NCBI RefSeq assembly: GCF_900101265.1
Contig: NZ_FMZS01000008.1
Coordinates: forward strand, 124,001-188,000
Direction of reading: 5' to 3'
Length of the DNA: 64,000 bases
From: Massilia sp. PDC64
Lineage (GTDB): Bacteria; Pseudomonadota; Gammaproteobacteria; Burkholderiales; Burkholderiaceae_D
Part shown: positions 8,735-57,990 of the stretch, in pieces
How the letters are laid out: each line of letters starts with the position of its first letter
Position numbering within the stretch: the first letter of the stretch is position 1
The notes under the pieces: generated by a model
Told to the model about the DNA's origin: nothing
Databases searched by the model: none
Seen by the model: the letters and a program-made list of their open reading frames with translations, nothing else
Made by a program: the position numbers and the translations under genes

Positions 8735-9937
8735 GTGAATCGGGTCAACAAAGCAAACGCAAGTCGGGCGGTCAGCCAGGTGATGTTGCCGTTCCCGCAA
8801 AAGTCCGCCGAGGTCGTGCCAATCAATGGTCCGATGAAAGGTCGTGGCGCCGTCACGAATATTCAAGGCCGTTACGAAGTGAACGGTCGCGAGCGGTTCG
8901 ACGACGGCTGGACCGTGCCAGGCGTGAAAGACGAGGCACCGGCGCCCCTGAAGACGACCGTCACGGACGAGATCGCGAAATCGATCCTCAGCCGCAACAC
9001 GTCGCCGGACATTCCGTTCAGCGTCTCGCTGAATCCGTACCGGGGCTGCGAGCACGGCTGCATCTACTGCTTCGCGCGGCCCACGCACGCCTACCTGGGT
9101 CTGTCGCCGGGCCTGGATTTCGAGAGCCGTTTGTACGCCAAGGTGAACGCGGCCGACCTGCTGCGGCGCGAACTGGCGCGGCCGGGCTATGTCCCGGAAA
9201 ACATCGCCATCGGCGTGAACACCGACGCCTATCAACCCTGCGAGCGCGAACGCCGCCTCACGCGCGAGGTGCTGGAAGTGCTGGGCGAGTGCAACCACCC
9301 GTACGGTCTGATCACGAAGTCGTCGCTGATCGAGCGCGACATCGACCTGATCGCGCCCATGGCGGAGAAGGGCCTGGCTTGCGCCGCCATCACGTTGACG
9401 ACGCTGGACGGCGAGATTTCGCGCACGCTCGAACCGCGCGCGGCCGCGCCCGCCCGCCGCCTGCGCGCGATCCGCACCTTGACGGAAGCGGGCATCCCCG
9501 TCAGCGTGAGCGTCGCACCGATCATCCCGTTCATCACGGAACCGGAAATCGAGCGCATCCTGGAAGCCGCGAAGGACGCCGGCGCCGTCGGCGCCCACTA
9601 CACGGTGCTGCGCATGCCGTGGGAAGTGAATCCGCTGTTCCAGCAATGGCTGCACGCCCACTTCCCGGACCGTGCCCAGCGCGTGATGAACCGCATCCGC
9701 GACATGCGCGGCGGCAAGGACTACGACAGCGACTTCAGCAAGCGCATGACGGGCGAGGGAATCTGGGCCGACCTGATCCGCCAGCGCTTCACGAAGGCGA
9801 TCAAGCGCCTGGGCATGGACGGCTACATGGGCCGTTTCCACAAGCTGGACAGCTCGCAATTCCGTCGTCCGCTCGTGGTGCCGAAGACGGTCGTCAAGCC
9901 GACCAGCGCGGCGGCGGCGCAGATGGATCTGTTTTAA
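8735..9937 (+). CDS. SOS-controlled radical SAM protein, PA0069 family
   Basis: A 400-residue radical SAM enzyme. The 4Fe-4S motif is C-X3-C-X2-C with Cys105, Cys109 and Cys112 in G-C-E-H-G-C-I-Y-C-F-A-R-P-T-H; this surrounding sequence is that of the PA0069/Rv2578c group, distantly related to spore photoproduct lyase. The reaction is unknown. Two features point to DNA repair. One is the LexA box immediately upstream. The other is the last five residues, Q-M-D-L-F, which fit the beta sliding clamp-binding consensus QL(S/D)LF and follow an Ala-rich linker. The start is GTG at 8735, six bases after AAGGAG. The 3' end overlaps the convergent acetyltransferase gene by four bases. Confidence 0.88.
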   Translation: MNRVNKANASRAVSQVMLPFPQKSAEVVPINGPMKGRGAVTNIQGRYEVNGRERFDDGWTVPGVKDEAPAPLKTTVTDEIAKSILSRNTSPDIPFSVSLNPYRGCEHGCIYCFARPTHAYLGLSPGLDFESRLYAKVNAADLLRRELARPGYVPENIAIGVNTDAYQPCERERRLTREVLEVLGECNHPYGLITKSSLIERDIDLIAPMAEKGLACAAITLTTLDGEISRTLEPRAAAPARRLRAIRTLTEAGIPVSVSVAPIIPFITEPEIERILEAAKDAGAVGAHYTVLRMPWEVNPLFQQWLHAHFPDRAQRVMNRIRDMRGGKDYDSDFSKRMTGEGIWADLIRQRFTKAIKRLGMDGYMGRFHKLDSSQFRRPLVVPKTVVKPTSAAAAQMDLF

Positions 9938-10473
9938 ACGTCTGGCACCAGCGACAGCACGTGCGCCGCGACAGGGTGCCCGTGCAGGTTGAGGCGGTTG
10001 CGCGCGAGGCATTCATGGACGGCCCCGGCCTTGCGGGCGACGCCGAGACTGGGCAGGTTGCCGTCCGCGACGACGATCTCGACCCGCGACTGGCCCAGGC
10101 GCTCGATCGCATGACGCGACAGCGTCCGGATGGCCGCCAGTGCCGCCCCCTGGCCCTGGGCCGACGTGCGGACCCAGTAGCCGAGGTTGCAGAAGCCGTG
10201 CAGGCGGTTGAACTGGTTCAGGCCGGCCGCGCCGACGTAGTGTCGTCCGTCCGGCCGGAAAATGCCGAACTCGTGCGCGCTGCCGTCGGCACGCGCGGCA
10301 TCGCAGAACGCGATCCACGCCAGCGCATCGGCATCGTCGTAAGCGGCATGGGCCCAGGGCATCCACGGACCGAGGCTCGCCATCGATTCGCGCACGGCGG
10401 CCGCCATCGCCGGCGCGTCCTCGGGGACGAGCGGGCGCAGGATAAAACCGTCGGCGTGGATGGGTTCTGTCAT
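9934..10473 (-). CDS. GNAT acetyltransferase, RimJ/RimL type
   Basis: A 179-residue N-acetyltransferase. The N-terminus F-I-L-R-P-L-V-P-E-D and the acetyl-CoA loop A-Q-G-Q-G-A-A near residue 107 mark the GNAT fold, and L-G-Y-W-V-R-T is typical of the RimJ/RimL branch, which acetylates ribosomal protein N-termini or small amines. The substrate is unknown. The gene is convergent with the radical SAM gene, sharing four bases at the stop codons, and is transcribed separately. Confidence 0.82.
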   Translation of the reverse strand: MTEPIHADGFILRPLVPEDAPAMAAAVRESMASLGPWMPWAHAAYDDADALAWIAFCDAARADGSAHEFGIFRPDGRHYVGAAGLNQFNRLHGFCNLGYWVRTSAQGQGAALAAIRTLSRHAIERLGQSRVEIVVADGNLPSLGVARKAGAVHECLARNRLNLHGHPVAAHVLSLVPDV

Positions 10474-10556
10474 GTCCGCATGATAACCCGCCAGGTTGTG
10501 AGAACGCAGGCTCTCGGCTACGATTGCGCTCTTTATCGACGGATCGGCAGGCGGAT

Positions 10557-11114
10557 ATGGCGGAGCAGGGCAGTACGGTGCAGCGGGTCGTGCAGCGGGT
10601 CGTGTTTGTGGGCGCGGAATCGACGGGCAAGTCGACGTTGTCCGAGTATCTCGCGCGTGCCTACGAGACGGTCGCCGTGCCGGAAATCGGCCGCTTCATC
10701 TGGGAAGAAAAACAGGGCAAACTGGGGCCCGACGACTACGTCGAGATCGCCGTCAGGCACCGCGCCGCCGAGGATGCCGCGATGGCACAGGCGCGGCGCT
10801 GGCTGTTCGTCGACACGAATGCGTTGACGACCCTGTTGTTGGGTATCGAGTTCCACCAGGTCGGCGACCCGCCCCCGGCCGAGCTGCTGCGCTGCGCGGA
10901 CGAGTGCCGTGCGCGCTATGCGCATACGTTCGTCTGCGCGGACGACATCCCGTATGAAGAACAGGAAGTGCGCGAGAACGAGGCGTGGCGCGGGCGCATC
11001 CAGCAACTCGTGCTGAAAGACCTCGACGCGCGCCGCATCCCGTACACGGTCGTGCACGGCAGCGTGGAAGAGCGGGCGCGCCAGGTGCGGCGCGTGCTGG
11101 ATAACGCCGCTTGA
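10557..11114 (+). CDS. NadR-like AAA ATPase/kinase
   Basis: A 185-residue P-loop protein, G-A-E-S-T-G-K-S-T near its N-terminus, resembling the ribosylnicotinamide kinase half of NadR. The adenylyltransferase and repressor domains of E. coli NadR are absent, and no PnuC transporter gene is adjacent, so the NAD-salvage role is inference. I chose ATG 10557 because the P-loop follows closely; an ATG at 10524 is in frame. TACGAT at 10519-10524 could be a -10 element. The stop codon sits in the left arm of a large hairpin. Confidence 0.7.
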   Translation: MAEQGSTVQRVVQRVVFVGAESTGKSTLSEYLARAYETVAVPEIGRFIWEEKQGKLGPDDYVEIAVRHRAAEDAAMAQARRWLFVDTNALTTLLLGIEFHQVGDPPPAELLRCADECRARYAHTFVCADDIPYEEQEVRENEAWRGRIQQLVLKDLDARRIPYTVVHGSVEERARQVRRVLDNAA

Positions 11115-51531: not shown

Positions 51532-51741
51532 ATGAACATCGCTAAGAATATGGAATCGATCTTTGTCGCAGCCGTCGTCGTCGCCGTCAGCGTCGCGAAC
51601 GCCATCGCAGCACCCGCCGCGCCACTGGAAGTCGCTGCCCGCACCGTCGTGGAAAAAGCGCCGGTGAAGGAGTCGCCGCCGATCACCATCGTCGTCGTCG
51701 GCAAGCGCCTGTCAGCCGAACAGAAAGCAAAGCGTGCCTGA
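51532..51741 (+). CDS. Small exported protein of unknown function
   Basis: A 69-residue protein starting M-N-I-A-K-N-M-E-S-I. A hydrophobic segment at about residues 8-26 ends in an A-I-A-A-P-A-A-P region, probably a cleaved signal peptide, leaving about 43 residues with T-I-V-V-V-G-K-R-L near the end. I recognise no family. ATG 51532 follows GGAGAAGAG at good spacing. It lies between two identical terminators and behind an operator-like inverted repeat. Confidence 0.65.
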   Translation: MNIAKNMESIFVAAVVVAVSVANAIAAPAAPLEVAARTVVEKAPVKESPPITIVVVGKRLSAEQKAKRA

Positions 51742-52034: not shown

Positions 52035-52904
52035 ATGACGACCCAGGACTACGCGAACCGCATCAGCCAGCTCATCCAGGACCAGGAAGCCGACATCGGC
52101 GCGGAATGGATCGAGCAGCTGGAAGCGTTGACGGTGCGGTCGAACGTCGTCTCGAAAGAACAGCTGCGCAAGCACTGCCAGCAATTCCTCGCAGCGTTTG
52201 CGCAGGCCACGCGCGGCGGCGAGCTGCACAACATCGACCATCGCTCGTGGGACGAAGTCCGCGACCTGCTGAGCGAGATCTCGTCGACCCGCGCCAAGAA
52301 CGGTTCCACGCCGAGCGAGACGGCGACCTTCGTGTTTTCGCTGAAGCAGCCCCTGTTCAAGCACCTGAACCAGGGCTTCGCGGGCGACCCGGCCGCGCTG
52401 GCGTCGGCCTCGTGGACCATCGGCACGCTGCTCGACAAGATGGGCCTTTACACGATCGAAGTGTTCCAGCGTGCGCGCGACCAGATCATCGTGCGCCAGC
52501 AGCAGGAATTGCTGGAATTGTCGACCCCGGTAGTCAAACTGTGGGAAGGCATCCTCGCGCTGCCGCTGATCGGTACGCTGGATTCGGCGCGTACGCAGGT
52601 GGTGATGGAGAACATCCTGCAGAAGATCGTCGACACGGGCGCCGCGATCGCCATCATCGACATCACCGGCGTGCCGACCGTCGACACGCTCGTCGCGCAG
52701 CACCTCATGAAGACCATCGCGGCCGCGCGCCTGATGGGTGCAGACTGCATCATCAGCGGCATCCGTCCTCAGATCGCGCAAACCATCGTGCACCTGGGCG
52801 TGAACCTCGAGGACGTCGTGACCAAGGCCACGCTGGCGGACGCGTTCCTCGTCGCGCTCGAGCGCACCGGCACGTCCGTCGTCAAGCGCACCGCCAAGGC
52901 ATAA
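52035..52904 (+). CDS. rsbR: RsbR-type stressosome sensor
   Basis: A 289-residue stressosome core protein. The N-terminal helical sensor half (residues 1-155) resembles RsbR/RsbRD sensor domains. The C-terminal STAS domain (about 162-280) contains L-I-G-T-L-D-S-A-R-T (181-187) and D-I-T-G-V-P-T-V-D-T (209-218), which hold the threonines phosphorylated by RsbT in Bacillus. It begins the six-gene operon, nine bases from rsbS. ATG 52035 follows AAAAGGAAAAC. What it senses is unknown. Confidence 0.87.
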   Translation: MTTQDYANRISQLIQDQEADIGAEWIEQLEALTVRSNVVSKEQLRKHCQQFLAAFAQATRGGELHNIDHRSWDEVRDLLSEISSTRAKNGSTPSETATFVFSLKQPLFKHLNQGFAGDPAALASASWTIGTLLDKMGLYTIEVFQRARDQIIVRQQQELLELSTPVVKLWEGILALPLIGTLDSARTQVVMENILQKIVDTGAAIAIIDITGVPTVDTLVAQHLMKTIAAARLMGADCIISGIRPQIAQTIVHLGVNLEDVVTKATLADAFLVALERTGTSVVKRTAKA

Positions 52905-52913
52905 GGACCGCGC

Positions 52914-53270
52914 ATGGAACGCATCCCGATTCTCCGCATGGGCGACCTGCTGCTGGTGACGATCCAGGTCGACATGCACGACCGGCTGGCGATGACCCTG
53001 CAGGACGACCTCACCGAACGCATCGTGCGCGACCGCGCCAAGGGCGTCCTGATCGACATCTCGGCGCTCGACCTGGTGGACTCGTTCATCGGTCGCATGA
53101 TCAGCAACACGGCCGCGATGGCGCGCGTGCTCGATGCGCAGACGGTGGTGGTCGGCATGCAGCCGGCCGTCGCGATCACGCTGGTCGAACTGGGTCTCAC
53201 GCTGCACGGCGTGAAGACGGCACTCAACGTCGAAAAGGGCATGGCCCTGTTGGGAAAGACTGATTTTTGA
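52914..53270 (+). CDS. rsbS: RsbS-type stressosome scaffold
   Basis: A 118-residue single STAS domain. The phosphorylation site is Ser57 in D-L-V-D-S-F-I-G-R, matching RsbS Ser59 of Bacillus. With RsbR it forms the stressosome shell that holds RsbT until stress-induced phosphorylation. It overlaps rsbT by one base. Confidence 0.9.
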   Translation: MERIPILRMGDLLLVTIQVDMHDRLAMTLQDDLTERIVRDRAKGVLIDISALDLVDSFIGRMISNTAAMARVLDAQTVVVGMQPAVAITLVELGLTLHGVKTALNVEKGMALLGKTDF

Positions 53271-53737
53271 TGAGCGCAGCTCTCAACAACGCGGTGGTCT
53301 TCGAGTCCGAACTGCTCGAGCGGCACCGCCAGGACCGCCTTGACCGCATCGCACTGCCGCTGCGTTCGGACGAGGACGTCGTCGCCCTGCGCAAGCACGT
53401 GCGCGAGCGGGCGGTCGCGATCGCGCTGTCCCTCGTCGACCAGACCAAGCTGGTGACGGCGGCCAGCGAACTGGCGCGCAACACGCTCAAGTACGGCGGC
53501 GGCGGCGTGGTCTACCTCGATGCGCTGGCGGACGGTTTCCGCAAGGGCGTCGGCCTGATCTTCGTCGATAACGGCCCCGGCATCCCCGACCTCGACATGG
53601 CGCTGCGCGACGGCTACACGACGGGCGGCGGCCTGGGGCTCGGCCTCGGCGGTTCGAAGCGCCTCGTCGACGAATTCGACATCGATTCCCGCGCGGGAGA
53701 GGGCACTGCGGTGTCGGTCGTCAAATGGAAACGCTGA
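53270..53737 (+). CDS. rsbT: RsbT-type serine/threonine kinase
   Basis: A 155-residue GHKL kinase, somewhat longer than Bacillus RsbT because of about 25 extra N-terminal residues. N-box S-E-L-A-R-N-T-L-K-Y-G, G1 D-N-G-P-G-I-P-D and G2 G-L-G-L-G-L-G-G-S-K-R-L-V-D-E-F are intact. It phosphorylates RsbR and RsbS and, once released, activates a downstream partner; here that partner is probably one of the next three products, not RsbU. ATG 53270 shares its first base with the rsbS stop. Confidence 0.9.
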   Translation: MSAALNNAVVFESELLERHRQDRLDRIALPLRSDEDVVALRKHVRERAVAIALSLVDQTKLVTAASELARNTLKYGGGGVVYLDALADGFRKGVGLIFVDNGPGIPDLDMALRDGYTTGGGLGLGLGGSKRLVDEFDIDSRAGEGTAVSVVKWKR

Positions 53738-54753
53738 TCAGTTCGCTGTCTCCGCAGCTCAACTTCGCCATCACCCACGCCAGCGACGTCGCCGCCGCGC
53801 GCCGCGCCGGGCAGAAGCTGGCGGATGCGCTCGGCTTCGACGACGTCAAGGCCGGCCGCCTCGCGATCGTCATCACGGAAGCCGCCACGAACATCCTCAA
53901 GCACGCGGGCGAGGGTACCGTCACGATCATGCGCACGCAGTCCGGCGTGACCATGCCGGGCGTGGACGTCGTCGCCGTCGACAACGGGCCCGGCATCGCC
54001 GACCTCGAATTCTCGCTGCGCGACGGCGTCTCGACGGCCGGCACGTCCGGCACGGGCCTCGGCGCGCTGCGCCGCCAGGCCGACGAATTCGACGCGTGGA
54101 CGCAGCACGGCCGCGGCAGCGCGTTCTTCATGCGCCTCTGGCAGGGCGCGACGCCGCCGGAGCCGTGCGGCATCGAAGTGGGCGCGCTGTGTACGCCCCT
54201 GGCTGGCGAGGACGAGTGCGGCGACGGCTGGGGCGTCACCTGCAACCTCGATGGCGCGACCCTCATCGGCGTGGACGGCCTCGGTCACGGACCGGAAGCG
54301 GCGAAGGCCGCCCGGGGGGCGATCCAGGCGCTGGAAAAGCGTCCGGCTGCCCTGCCTTCCGAGGTGCTGCACACGGCGCACGAGCTGCTGCGCATCACGC
54401 GCGGCGCCGCCATGTCCGTGGCGCGGGTCGACTACAGCGGCGACGACTTGCGCTTCGCCGGCATCGGCAACGTGGCCGCCGTCGTGTACGACGGCACGGC
54501 GCGCCGCGCGCTCGTCTCGCACAACGGCATCGTCGGCCACAACATGCGCAAGGTGCAGGAATTCGCGGCGCCGTTCCCGCCCGGCGCGCTGTGCGTGCTG
54601 TCCTCGGACGGCATCCAGACCCAGTGGGACCTGTCCGCGTATCCTGGGCTGCATCTGCATGCGCCCGCGCTCGTGGCGGCCGTGCTGATGCGTGACTTCA
54701 TCCGCCGCCGCGACGACGCGATGGTGCTGGTCGCGCGCCGGAGAACATCATGA
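53725..54753 (+). CDS. Fused RsbT/RsbW-like kinase and PP2C phosphatase (RsbX-like)
   Basis: A 342-residue two-domain protein. Residues 1-135 are a GHKL ATPase (E-A-A-T-N-I-L-K-H-A-G, D-N-G-P-G-I-A-D, S-G-T-G-L-G-A-L-R-R). Residues about 150-340 are a PP2C/SpoIIE phosphatase (G-V-D-G-L-G-H-G, F-A-G-I-G-N-V, L-S-S-D-G-I). The phosphatase half is RsbX-like and should dephosphorylate RsbR/RsbS, resetting the stressosome. It overlaps rsbT by 13 bases and the next gene by four. Confidence 0.85.
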   Translation: METLISSLSPQLNFAITHASDVAAARRAGQKLADALGFDDVKAGRLAIVITEAATNILKHAGEGTVTIMRTQSGVTMPGVDVVAVDNGPGIADLEFSLRDGVSTAGTSGTGLGALRRQADEFDAWTQHGRGSAFFMRLWQGATPPEPCGIEVGALCTPLAGEDECGDGWGVTCNLDGATLIGVDGLGHGPEAAKAARGAIQALEKRPAALPSEVLHTAHELLRITRGAAMSVARVDYSGDDLRFAGIGNVAAVVYDGTARRALVSHNGIVGHNMRKVQEFAAPFPPGALCVLSSDGIQTQWDLSAYPGLHLHAPALVAAVLMRDFIRRRDDAMVLVARRRTS

Positions 54754-56087
54754 GTGTCCAGCGCATCCTCGCCGTGGGTCTCGACGACGAGCAGGACGTC
54801 GTGCTCGTGCGCCAGCGCGCGCGCCAGGTCTCGCACCTGCTCGGGTTTTCGCAGCAGGACCAGGTGCGCGTCGCGACCGCCGTGTCGGAAGTGGCGCGCG
54901 GCGCGAGCCAGGCAGGTTTCGGCGGCCGTGCCGCGTTCCTGATCCGCGAAGCGGGCCGGCGCCAGTCGCTCGAGGTGACGATCAGCGGCGGCCAGGGCGC
55001 GCAAGGGGCGCTGCCGGATGATGCCGTCGTCACGGCGCACCGCCTGATGGACGAGTGCGACGTCGCGCAGGATGCGCAGGGCGCCGGCGTGATCACGATG
55101 CGCAAGGCGCTGCCGCCGCAGACGTGGGTCGACAACGCGCGTCTCGCGGAGATCGCGGCGCAGCTGGCGAAGGACAGCCCCGTCGCCAACACGTACAACG
55201 AACTGCAGCTGCAGAACCGCGAACTGGTCGCCACGCTGGCGGAACTGCGCGAGCGTCAGGAAGACCTGCTGTCGCTGACGCGCGAGCTGGAAGACACGAA
55301 CCGCGGCATCGTCGCGCTGTATGCCGAGATCGAGGACAAGGCCGAGCGTTTGCGCCGCGCCGACGAGATGAAGTCGCGCTTCCTGTCGAACACGAGCCAC
55401 GAGCTGCGCACGCCGCTGTCGTCGATCCGCGCGCTCGCGAAGCTGCTGCTGGACCGCATGGACGGCGACCTGACGCCGGAACAGGAGCGTCAGGTGCGCT
55501 ACATCGAGGCCGCCGCGGCCGACCTGTCGGAACTCGTCAACGACCTGCTCGACCTGGCCAAGATCGAGGCGGGCCGCGTCGAGGTCGTGGTGGCGCCCAT
55601 CGTCGTGGACAATCTGTTCCGCGCGCTCAAGGGCATGCTCCGTCCCCTCGTCGACGATGCGCGGGTCGACCTGATCTTCGAACCGTGCGACTATACGGAG
55701 GCATTCGATTCGGACGAGGGCAAGATCTCGCAGGTGCTGCGCAACTTCATTTCGAACGCCCTGAAATTCACCGAACAGGGCGCGGTACACGTGTCGGCCT
55801 TCCATGACCCGGAGGCCGATACGATCACGTTCGCGGTGGCCGACACCGGGATCGGCATCAGCCCGGAGAACCTGCAGTTGATCTTCGAAGAGTTCAGCCA
55901 GATCGAACACCCGCTGCAGCGGCGCAGCAAAGGCACGGGTCTCGGCCTGCCCCTGTGCCGCAAGCTGGCGAAACTTCTCGGCGGCCGCGTGGACGTGGTC
56001 AGCCAGCCCGGCGTCGGCTCCACCTTCAGCCTCGTGCTGCCGCGCCTCTTCCCGGCCAAGTCTTCGCCGCGCAACGATGGAACCTGA
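54750..56087 (+). CDS. Histidine kinase with a degenerate RsbT-like N-terminal domain
   Basis: A 445-residue soluble kinase. Residues 1-130 resemble a GHKL domain, but the N-box reads S-E-V-A-R-G-A with Gly for the ATP-coordinating Asn, so this part is probably a docking module. A coiled coil (about 145-205) leads to the phosphoacceptor His in S-N-T-S-H-E-L-R-T-P-L and a complete ATPase domain (N-A-L-K-F, D-T-G-I-G-I, G-T-G-L-G-L-P). It has no membrane segment. It overlaps the upstream gene and is the likely bridge between stressosome and phosphorelay. Confidence 0.85.
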   Translation: MSVQRILAVGLDDEQDVVLVRQRARQVSHLLGFSQQDQVRVATAVSEVARGASQAGFGGRAAFLIREAGRRQSLEVTISGGQGAQGALPDDAVVTAHRLMDECDVAQDAQGAGVITMRKALPPQTWVDNARLAEIAAQLAKDSPVANTYNELQLQNRELVATLAELRERQEDLLSLTRELEDTNRGIVALYAEIEDKAERLRRADEMKSRFLSNTSHELRTPLSSIRALAKLLLDRMDGDLTPEQERQVRYIEAAAADLSELVNDLLDLAKIEAGRVEVVVAPIVVDNLFRALKGMLRPLVDDARVDLIFEPCDYTEAFDSDEGKISQVLRNFISNALKFTEQGAVHVSAFHDPEADTITFAVADTGIGISPENLQLIFEEFSQIEHPLQRRSKGTGLGLPLCRKLAKLLGGRVDVVSQPGVGSTFSLVLPRLFPAKSSPRNDGT

Positions 56088-56097
56088 GGAACGCAAC

Positions 56098-57990
56098 ATG
56101 ACTACCCCGACTTTGATCCTCAACGTCGACGACAACGACGGTGCCCGCTACGCCAAGACGCGCATCCTGCAGAGCGCCGGCTTCGACGTGGTCGAGGCGA
56201 GCAACGGCACCGACGCGATCGCCGTCGTCAAGCGCGGCGGCGTCGCACTCGTGCTGCTCGACGTGAAGCTCCCGGACATCAACGGCATCGAGGTGTGCCG
56301 CCGCATCAAGGCCGACCCGGACAGCGCGATGGTGCTCGTGCTGCAGACGTCGGCCGCGCTGACGGGCCGCGCGGACAAGATCCGCGGCCTGGAGGGCGGT
56401 GCCGACAATTATCTCGCCGCGCCGATCGAGGCCGACGAGCTGATCGCCAACGTCAACGCGCTGCTGCGCATGCGCCAGACCCAGAGCGCGCTGCGCGACA
56501 GCGAGGAACGCTTCCGCCAGCTGACCGACAACATCGAGGACGTGTTCTGGATGTTCTCCGTGCCGGCGCGCGCGCTCGAATACGTGAGCCCCGCGTATGC
56601 GACGATCTGGGGCCGCCCCATCGATACGCTGGAGCGCGAGCCGGGCAGCTGGCTGTCGGCCGTGCATCCGGACGACCGCGCCTACGTCGCGTCGCTGTGG
56701 GATGCGGTGCAGGCCGCGCCGCACTACGATGCCGAATTCCGTGTGACGATGCCGGACGGTTCGCTGCGCTGGGTGCGCGACCGCCTGTTCCCCGTGCGCG
56801 ACCGGCGCGACGAGGTGTACCGCGTGGCGCGCGTCACGAGCGACATCACGCGGCGCAAGGAAATGGAAGCGCTGCTGCGCGCGGCCGACGCCAACAAGAA
56901 CGAATTCCTCGCGACGCTCGCGCACGAGCTGCGCAATCCGCTGTCGCCGATCCGCAATGCGGCGGCGCTGCTGGGCGCCTCCGGCAGTGGCGCCATCGAG
57001 CGCCAGGCGCGCGCGCGCGACGTCATCACGCGCCAGGTCGACCATCTCGCGCACCTCGTCGACGACCTGCTCGACGTGGCGCGCATCTCCGAGGGCAAGA
57101 TCGTGCTGCGCGAGGAAGAGGTCGAACTGAAGGGCGTGATCGCGCAGGCGGTAGAGACGGCCGGCCCGCTGATCGCGGCGCGCGAACACAAGCTGGAAGT
57201 GATCCAGCCGGACCGCGCGATCTGGCTCAAGGGCGACCCCGTGCGCCTCGCGCAATCGATGGGCAACCTGCTGCACAACGCGGCCAAGTTCACGCCCAAG
57301 GGCGGCCGCATCAAGGTCGAGGTGACGCTGCAGGATACGGTCGTGCGCATCGCCGTGCAGGACAACGGCATCGGCATCGCCGAGGACAACCTGTCGCGCA
57401 TCTTCGGCATGTTCGCCCAGGCCGCCGTGCCGCCGGACCGCGCGCCGGAAGGCCTCGGCATCGGCCTGTCGCTCGTCTCGCGCCTGCTCGAGATGCACGG
57501 CGGCCGGCTGTCCGCCACGAGCCCCGGCATCGGCCTCGGCTCCACGTTCACCGTCGAGCTGCCGGTACTGCGCACGGCGGAGCAGGGCGCGCAGGCGGCC
57601 CAGGCGCAGTCCGGCGAGCCGGCCCCCGCATCGGGCGGCCGCAAGATCCTGCTCGTCGACGACAACGTCGATGCGATGGAGATGATGGCCTTCCTGCTGG
57701 CCGAGATGGGCTACGAGGCGCATACGACGGCGGACGCGGGCAATCTCGTGCAGATGGCGCTGGAACTGCGCCCGGACGTGATCGTGCTGGACATCGGCCT
57801 GCCGGGCGTGGACGGCTACGAGCTGGCGCGCATGCTCAAGCGGCATCCGCAGCTGGCGTCGACCCGTCTCGTCGCCCATACGGGCTACGGTTCGCCGGAG
57901 GACCGGCGCAAGGCGCTGGAGGCGGGGTTCGATGCGCACCTCGTCAAGCCGGCGGAGCTGGAGGATCTCGAGAAAGCCCTGCAGGGCTGA
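56098..57990 (+). CDS. Hybrid kinase REC-PAS-HisKA-HATPase-REC
   Basis: A 630-residue cytosolic protein. The first receiver spans about residues 5-120 (acceptor Asp in L-L-D-V-K-L-P), then a PAS/PAC domain (about 135-260), HisKA with His in L-A-H-E-L-R-N-P-L-S-P, an ATPase domain (N-A-A-K-F, D-N-G-I-G-I, L-G-I-G-L-S-L-V), and a second receiver (about 515-630, acceptor Asp in V-L-D-I-G-L-P-G). It could accept phosphate from the preceding kinase and pass it on. No DNA-binding output is encoded in the operon. ATG 56098 follows GAGGAACGCAAC. Confidence 0.88.
   Translation: MTTPTLILNVDDNDGARYAKTRILQSAGFDVVEASNGTDAIAVVKRGGVALVLLDVKLPDINGIEVCRRIKADPDSAMVLVLQTSAALTGRADKIRGLEGGADNYLAAPIEADELIANVNALLRMRQTQSALRDSEERFRQLTDNIEDVFWMFSVPARALEYVSPAYATIWGRPIDTLEREPGSWLSAVHPDDRAYVASLWDAVQAAPHYDAEFRVTMPDGSLRWVRDRLFPVRDRRDEVYRVARVTSDITRRKEMEALLRAADANKNEFLATLAHELRNPLSPIRNAAALLGASGSGAIERQARARDVITRQVDHLAHLVDDLLDVARISEGKIVLREEEVELKGVIAQAVETAGPLIAAREHKLEVIQPDRAIWLKGDPVRLAQSMGNLLHNAAKFTPKGGRIKVEVTLQDTVVRIAVQDNGIGIAEDNLSRIFGMFAQAAVPPDRAPEGLGIGLSLVSRLLEMHGGRLSATSPGIGLGSTFTVELPVLRTAEQGAQAAQAQSGEPAPASGGRKILLVDDNVDAMEMMAFLLAEMGYEAHTTADAGNLVQMALELRPDVIVLDIGLPGVDGYELARMLKRHPQLASTRLVAHTGYGSPEDRRKALEAGFDAHLVKPAELEDLEKALQG

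Follow-up and report, generated by a model that had tools for sequence, protein, structure and literature searches.

A predicted RsbT-type pseudokinase domain at the head of the histidine kinase in a Massilia stressosome-phosphorelay operon

Operons that join a stressosome to a phosphorelay are already known, and the claim of the first-pass annotation that stressosome-two-component clusters occur in other proteobacteria agrees with what is in print. In Vibrio vulnificus and V. brasiliensis, RsbR, RsbS, RsbT and a PP2C phosphatase are followed by a two-component pair with no SigB (RSTX-D1-D2), and the presumed output module is transcribed with the same kinetics, according to the available portions of PMC9237108 and PMC10014275. 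These portions also describe a globin-sensor RsbR, a single-domain PP2C (RsbX) and D1/D2 proteins with a predicted link to c-di-GMP, whereas the operon discussed here has an RsbRD_N sensor, an RsbT-PP2C fusion, a fusion of RsbT to a histidine kinase (HK) and a REC-PAS-HK-REC hybrid. In globin-type operons most of the downstream signalling proteins that were looked at lack RsbU_N, the domain that binds RsbT, as stated in the available part of PMC9237108. A second group of systems comprises RsbU, the Moorella GGDEF protein MtG and proteobacterial RsbU_N-HKs. Here, too, the coupling element is the N-terminus of the effector, followed by a helical linker (available text of PMC12143880); these effectors carry an RsbT-binding domain, whereas the kinase of our operon carries an RsbT-type domain itself. 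Neither an RsbT-HK fusion nor a pseudokinase form of it was found in searches of the open-access literature.

The operon lies in a window of 64,000 nucleotides from Massilia sp. PDC64, with all six genes on the plus strand: RsbR (52035..52904), RsbS (52914..53270), RsbT (53270..53737), P4 (53725..54753; HATPase_c_2 and SpoIIE in Pfam), the histidine kinase P5 (54750..56087; HisKA and HATPase_c) and P6 (56098..57990; two Response_reg domains, PAS_3, HisKA and HATPase_c). The spacings are, in order, +9, -1, -13, -4 and +10 bases; the genes are thus found at the positions first given for them and are tightly packed, although the overlap between RsbT and P4 exceeds the limit of ten bases that had been stated. 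The identical order, with spacings of -13 to +17 bases, recurs in 11 of 11 other fully read loci of the genus, all of which encode RsbR, RsbS and RsbT together, and P5 is carried by 59 of the 62 genomes of the genus. This confirms that the six-gene stressosome/His-Asp operon is real and not a chance pairing.

The stressosome core has its expected parts. RsbR combines a sensor domain (RsbRD_N, PF14361, 5.3e-25) with a STAS domain (PF01740, 2.3e-13), while RsbS is a single STAS domain (PF01740, 3.1e-8) with a dN/dS of 0.09 across 12 operons of the genus. The phosphosites had been called intact, and the candidate residues are indeed present in all 12: Ser57 of RsbS (codon 53082-53084) as well as Thr218 (codon 52686-52688) and Thr250 (codon 52782-52784) of RsbR, within the motifs DITGVPxVDT and RPQIAQT. 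From their B. subtilis counterparts we take these to be the sites phosphorylated by RsbT. The stand-alone switch kinase RsbT has intact ATP-binding boxes (PF02518, 3.2e-11; PF13581, 3.6e-6). A feedback phosphatase of the RsbX type is present as P4, in which the operon's second RsbT-type domain (about 53782-54132, residues 20-136; PF13581, 1.8e-10), also with intact boxes and with a Gln at the +9 place of helix 1, is fused to a SpoIIE/RsbX-type PP2C domain (54268-54741, residues 182-339; PF07228, 1.7e-10) whose acidic motifs occur in 12/12 genus operons. The sigma B branch is absent, as had been expected: none of 11 matches to TIGR02980 (SigBFG) in the organism's own genome passes the curated cut-off, and an output via SigB is rejected on this ground.

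The first 125 residues of P5 (54750..55124), which we call P5N, escaped the first-pass annotation and are, as judged from profile comparison and structure prediction, a further RsbT-type domain. An alignment of profiles with hhalign matches P5N to RsbT at 99.3% (E=4e-20), against 0.35% for the control, P5N versus RsbS. The AlphaFold2 (AF2) model of P5N reaches a pLDDT of 88.3, and a Foldseek search with it returned 19 matches at E<=1e-3, every one of them an RsbW, UsfX or SpoIIAB entry. An RsbU_N domain as N-terminus of P5 is rejected, since a Pfam scan for PF08673 gave no match in P5 or in P6.

While P5N shares fold and sequence profile with the GHKL serine kinases RsbT, RsbW and SpoIIAB, it lacks their N-box Asn, G1 Asp and G2 glycines. 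For this reason we call it a pseudokinase, not an RsbT kinase, and P5N should not bind ATP as these kinases do, as far as its residues tell. The census covers 58 aligned copies from 58 genomes plus a 59th (G694), and these boxes are gone in 58 of the 59 copies. The N-box position holds Gly in 30, Ala in 18, Val in 4, Ser in 3 and a gap in 3 copies, and neither the G1 Asp (0/58) nor a GxG at the G2 place (0/58) is found. G694 has all boxes and also a C-terminal REC. Helices 1 and 2 of RsbT are retained: the helix-1 motif RQRAR is kept in 57 of the 58 box-less copies and is absent, as read, from G714 (L308). Helix 1 has a conserved Asp, and the two arginines that follow it at +5 and +9 occur both in P5 and in the RsbT of the window; they presumably correspond to R19 and R23 of B. 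subtilis RsbT. The equivalent of RsbT Asp92 would presumably fall in the part that is deleted from P5N. In the available text of PMC12143880, R19 and R23 sit in the RsbU interface, and Asp92 pairs with the RsbU linker residue R91.

Behind P5N, one continuous predicted helix (55191..55451, residues 148-234; AF2) runs into the DHp helix. The AF2 model of the full-length P5 monomer has a mean pLDDT of 79.8 and a pTM of 0.47, and the linker (residues 126-205) shows a column identity of 0.84 in 55 sequences of the genus. The kinase core (55368..56045; PF00512, 3.5e-20; PF02518, 1.7e-27) carries the phospho-acceptor His217 (codon 55398-55400), and 12/12 copies retain its H, N and G boxes; most relatives, unlike P5, have a C-terminal REC. 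P6 contains a first receiver with Asp55 and Ala108 (YLAAP), a histidine kinase with His276 and a second receiver with Asp565 and its Lys, motifs that are kept in 12/12 genus operons. Receivers usually have a Lys at the place of Ala108. The earlier description of all kinase boxes as intact is right for RsbT and P4 (N-box Asn in 12/12 for each) and for the core of P5, but not for the N-terminal GHKL domain of P5, and the first receiver of P6 also departs from it. The parts of a phosphorelay, HisKA/HATPase modules with a phospho-His and receivers with a phospho-Asp, are thus in place, and transfer between them is predicted.

Taken together, these features lead us to favour, with modest confidence, a stressosome with a two-kinase phosphorelay output, whose coupling relies on RsbT-type domains that form part of the effectors and in which P5N is a docking module whose catalysis is dispensable. 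RsbR and RsbS would form the sensor shell, RsbT, as its family suggests, would be their kinase, and P4 would act as the reset phosphatase, bringing itself to the shell via its own RsbT-type domain. P5N might compete with RsbT for a docking place on the shell; alternatively, it might pack against the linker helix of P5 in the way that RsbT packs on RsbU. Phosphorylation of RsbS and RsbR would then change the P5 linker and switch autophosphorylation of His217, and the gene order suggests that P6 would take over the phosphate from P5 and hand it to an unlinked regulator. The title of Kang et al. 1998 states that the kinase activity of RsbT is not needed for activating its PP2C target. The Gln in helix 1 of P4, the lack of RQRAR in G714 and the presumed absence of an Asp92 equivalent from P5N count against this reading. 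Since P5 has its own RsbT-like part, through which it may dock on RsbS/RsbR directly, contact between RsbT and the kinase may be lacking even in a working module. The proposal of a probable His-Asp output thus survives in that the gene order wires a SigB-less stressosome to His-Asp proteins, but the overlooked RsbT-derived domain alters the expected wiring. That the output was called unknown still holds, with no DNA-binding or second-messenger domain among Pfam matches in the six proteins.

The same operon is found in cyanobacteria, Bradyrhizobium and soil betaproteobacteria, and the operon type extends to Planctomycetota, Nitrospirota and Rokubacteria as well as cyanobacteria. From outside the genus we kept the 80 top-ranked loci out of at least 559, with an intact sequence from Bradyrhizobium as the reference for the ranking. 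This biases the counts of intact domains, and pseudokinases elsewhere may for this reason be under-sampled. Among these best 80, the fused RsbT domain has its N-box Asn in 80/80, and the helix-1 arginines are present in 80/80 (+5) and 73/80 (+9). RsbR-RsbS-RsbT, RsbT-PP2C and RsbT-HK cluster in 71 of these 80 loci, which together with the order kept in 11/11 genus loci rules out that P5 stands beside the stressosome by accident. Six of the nine exceptions start near a contig edge (L174, L175, L176, L182, L186 and L204); the other three, from cyanobacteria (L152, L155 and L162), have no R-S-T genes at the expected place. A REC/HK-type gene follows P5 in 65 of the best 80 under a loose rule, which asks for a start fewer than 300 bases past the end of P5 or for an overlap, and in 52 under a tight one; contig ends account for part of the misses. 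Beyond P6, no common gene was found in the outside loci among the ORFs scanned, a set with only a minority of the unnamed ones. That the boxes are kept in these related operons and decayed in the genus suggests that the essential role of P5N may be binding, not catalysis.

Could the stand-alone RsbT instead act in trans, as it does in B. subtilis? Once set free by the shell, RsbT would then bind the P5 linker or P5N and activate the kinase, with P5N a mere platform for it. RsbT does activate RsbU through its N-domain and linker (available text of PMC12143880), and 8 of the 38 genomes with an RsbS hit in the phylum sample have the same operon with a kinase that lacks an N-terminal domain, so that a P5-type domain is not needed everywhere. 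These kinases share the same linker, on which RsbT may act directly. In other stressosome operons (L060, L063, L064 and L127) the kinase is headed by an RsbU_N above the Pfam cut-off, and this functional alternation between two types of domain at the head of the kinase speaks for the favoured reading. P5, however, has no detectable RsbU_N, and in Vibrio vulnificus RsbT and VvD1 gave no positive interaction, for which the authors suggest a transient contact (available part of PMC9237108). Coupling in trans, which we regard as unlikely, also fails to account for kinases of several phyla being fused to an RsbT-type domain.

The history of P5N bears on a second alternative. Ratios of dN/dS, calculated as ratios of sums over 66 non-independent pairs from the 12 genus operons, amount to 0.32 for helices 1-2 of P5 and 0.77 (median 0.82) for its ATP half; the matching halves give 0.18 and 0.26 in RsbT and 0.33 and 0.35 in P4. 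With its ATP half evolving near relaxation, P5N could be partly vestigial. In a tree of linker and kinase, all 24 pseudokinase copies sampled fall into a single clade (100/100), with one change of state; the bootstrap is not settled, G694 is placed without starred support, and three orphan rows (L312, L317 and L319) were left out. The named relatives of G694 in this tree suggest that the genus belongs to the Oxalobacteraceae, near Massilia/Pseudoduganella. Most simply, the boxes would have decayed within the genus once. That the whole domain is a decaying relic, P5 now being an ordinary cytoplasmic kinase driven by P6 or other inputs, would fit this near-relaxed half and the accompanying loss of the C-terminal REC but is improbable, as helices 1-2 are more constrained than the PAS of P6 (0.46) or the PP2C of P4 (0.45), RQRAR is kept almost throughout, P5N is retained and predicted to fold, and elsewhere GGDEF effectors, too, begin with a degenerate RsbT domain.

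These effectors are four GGDEF proteins (diguanylate cyclases) from four other genomes, whose N-domains match P5N at 2.1e-9 and RsbT at 2.2e-7, with a control at 0.2%; the N-box Asn is missing in 4/4. For the GGDEF N-domains of L273/L274 and L345, with a profile match of just 44.6%, no such assignment is made. Like P5N, the degenerate GGDEF heads have no Pfam match, so standard annotation would not show them.

We give an even chance to a broader picture, in which stressosomes in several phyla signal via RsbT fused to effectors (phosphatase, histidine kinase, diguanylate cyclase) as a cis counterpart of RsbT-RsbU, and in which the fused RsbT of at least two genome groups would be a catalytically dead docking domain that acts by binding alone. 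Fused RsbT domains offer a concrete, testable link for how SigB-less stressosomes reach their outputs, and the genus presents a natural catalytic knock-out of such a domain, which 58 of the 59 P5-bearing genomes retain. The wide spread of the operon suggests a widespread circuit from stress to phosphorelay.

The six genes that the first-pass annotation had described are all found at window positions 52035-57990 on the forward strand, on contig C13 of the 7.5-Mb genome of Massilia sp. PDC64. They encode RsbR (RsbRD_N-STAS in Pfam), RsbS (STAS), RsbT (HATPase_c), an RsbT-PP2C protein termed P4 (HATPase_c_2-SpoIIE), the histidine kinase P5 (HisKA-HATPase_c) and the hybrid kinase P6 (REC-PAS-HisKA-HATPase_c-REC). 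The spacings in gene order are +9, -1, -13, -4 and +10 bases, the 13-base overlap being the only one beyond the proposed limit of ten. The complete order is seen in 11 more genus loci; RsbS was detected in 24 of 25 genus genomes (first sample, E≤1e-60) and P5 in 59 of 62 (E≤1e-20). Ser57 of RsbS and Thr218 and Thr250 of RsbR, the phosphosites described as intact, are present in 12/12 genus operons. The kinase boxes had likewise been called intact, which holds for RsbT and P4, each with its N-box Asn in 12/12, but not for the N-terminal domain of P5 (P5N), whose ATP boxes are lost. Upstream of rsbR, a 69-residue small protein (51532-51741) whose start resembles a signal peptide by eye has a match in two of the 11 genus loci.

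What is P5N? Pfam gives no match on the first 122 residues of P5. Comparing a P5N profile from eight genus sequences with an RsbT profile from 11 nevertheless identifies an RsbT-type domain (probability 99.3%, E=4e-20, 118 columns; 0.35% for the RsbS control). The AlphaFold2 model is confident (pLDDT 88.3), and all 19 matches at E≤1e-3 in a PDB fold search with it are RsbW, UsfX or SpoIIAB, followed by SiaB (0.013) and, from 0.02, by histidine-kinase domains among other folds.

Among 58 genus copies from as many genomes, the N-box Asn is replaced by Gly in 30, Ala in 18, Val in four, Ser in three and a gap in three, and neither the G1 Asp nor a GxG at the G2 place occurs in any, while the helix-1 motif RQRAR is kept in 57 (the exception being G714, locus L308). 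Selection follows the same division: by NG86 (ratio of sums, 12 genus operons), dN/dS is 0.32 for helices 1-2 of P5N, 0.77 for its ATP half, 0.36 for the linker and 0.16 for DHp, compared with 0.18 and 0.26 for the corresponding halves of RsbT and 0.33 and 0.35 for those of P4. Across 55 genus sequences, the two halves of P5N give 0.30 and 0.74. Helices 1-2 are under constraint, and the one-time catalytic half is nearly free.

A 59th genus copy, in genome G694, has all three boxes and a C-terminal REC, unlike the window's P5, which has no such REC. A 67-row tree built on linker and kinase, whose bootstrap had not settled, unites the 24 pseudokinase copies sampled in a single clade (100/100), for which one state change suffices; G694 falls beside Pseudoduganella flava and Noviherbaspirillum, a position that has no starred support. 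In 15 of 62 genus genomes there is a second RsbT-HK paralog, an orphan (L117, L312, L315, L316 and others). The four examined keep the N-box Asn; their genes are divergent and adjoin an RsbR paralog, with RsbS and RsbT absent there.

In a phylum sample, 22 of 398 genomes match P5N plus linker (E≤1e-6), part of these matches spanning the linker alone or an RsbT alone. Scanning the GTDB species genomes yielded at least 559 relatives. The best 80 of these include Bradyrhizobium and other alphaproteobacteria, Janthinobacterium, Herbaspirillum and Pseudoduganella, as well as many cyanobacteria, Planctomycetota, Bryobacteraceae, Rokubacteria, Nitrospira and others. Home-made HMMs place RsbR, RsbS, RsbT, RsbT-PP2C and RsbT-linker-HK in a single cluster in 71 of these best 80 loci; a REC/HK gene follows RsbT-HK in 65 of the 80 by a loose rule and in 52 of the 80 by a tight one. 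All 80 retain the N-box Glu and Asn in their fused RsbT, and 79 the G1 Asp; since the ranking favours intact copies, this set is no census of pseudokinases.

Which effectors do stressosome loci carry? An RsbS profile, which also picks up other STAS proteins, matched 38 of the 398 phylum genomes at E≤1e-12. Locus annotation covered every one of these, using home-made HMMs except in G000 and G012, where matches to proteins of the window served instead; in G424 it took in one of two contigs. The effector is an RsbT-fused histidine kinase in 10 genomes (two pseudokinase, eight with the N-box Asn). In eight it is a kinase with the same linker that lacks the N-domain and begins at the coiled coil, in the same operon (L118-L124, L279); the six of these that were placed on the linker-kinase tree form one clade. 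RsbU_N-like effectors occur in three (above the Pfam cut-off in G635, just above in G440, on its GGDEF protein, and below in G335), long hybrid kinases without a recognised docking domain in six (Pfam scan of three) and GGDEF proteins in eight; three have none recognised or a contig end. Four of the eight GGDEF proteins, all in stressosome operons (L346 6290-7213, L347 3007-3987, L348 7115-8038, L349 5510-6451), are diguanylate cyclases whose N-domains have no Pfam match; a profile built from them scores 2.2e-7 against RsbT and 2.1e-9 against P5N (control 0.2%), and the N-box Asn is missing in 4/4. Effectors headed by a degenerate RsbT are thus not limited to this genus.

The PDC64 genome uses the RsbRD_N sensor domain both in RsbR and in a kinase, the latter in a 534-residue open frame whose histidine-kinase part resembles P6 (C13:322238; L068, about 9240-10840). 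An orphan RsbR paralog with 61% identity to the operon's RsbR lies on contig C29 (L067, 9948-10760), where no further stressosome gene of the operon was matched in a 20-kb stretch; it suggests a mixed-sensor shell.

As had been claimed for other proteobacteria, stressosome-phosphorelay operons are already published. Neither the RsbT-HK fusion nor its pseudokinase form was found in the open-access literature searched; articles by Pane-Farre and colleagues (2005, 2017) may mention such fusions.

Could a domain without ATP boxes still signal? To go by the title of Kang et al. 1998, the kinase activity of RsbT is reportedly unnecessary for activating its PP2C target. PMC12143880 describes how RsbT activates RsbU: it binds the N-domain of RsbU and makes a coiled-coil linker rigid. 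Histidine kinases and GGDEF proteins headed by RsbU_N are known effectors (PMC12143880, PMC9237108). P5 has an RsbT-type domain where those effectors have RsbU_N, followed in the model by a single continuous predicted helix running into DHp. In the simplest model, P5N would dock either on the RsbR/RsbS shell or on the linker of P5 itself, under the control of RsbS and RsbR phosphorylation, which RsbT would set and P4 reset. P5 would then feed P6 by phosphotransfer, and any of the 18 Hpt matches in the genome may carry the output onward.
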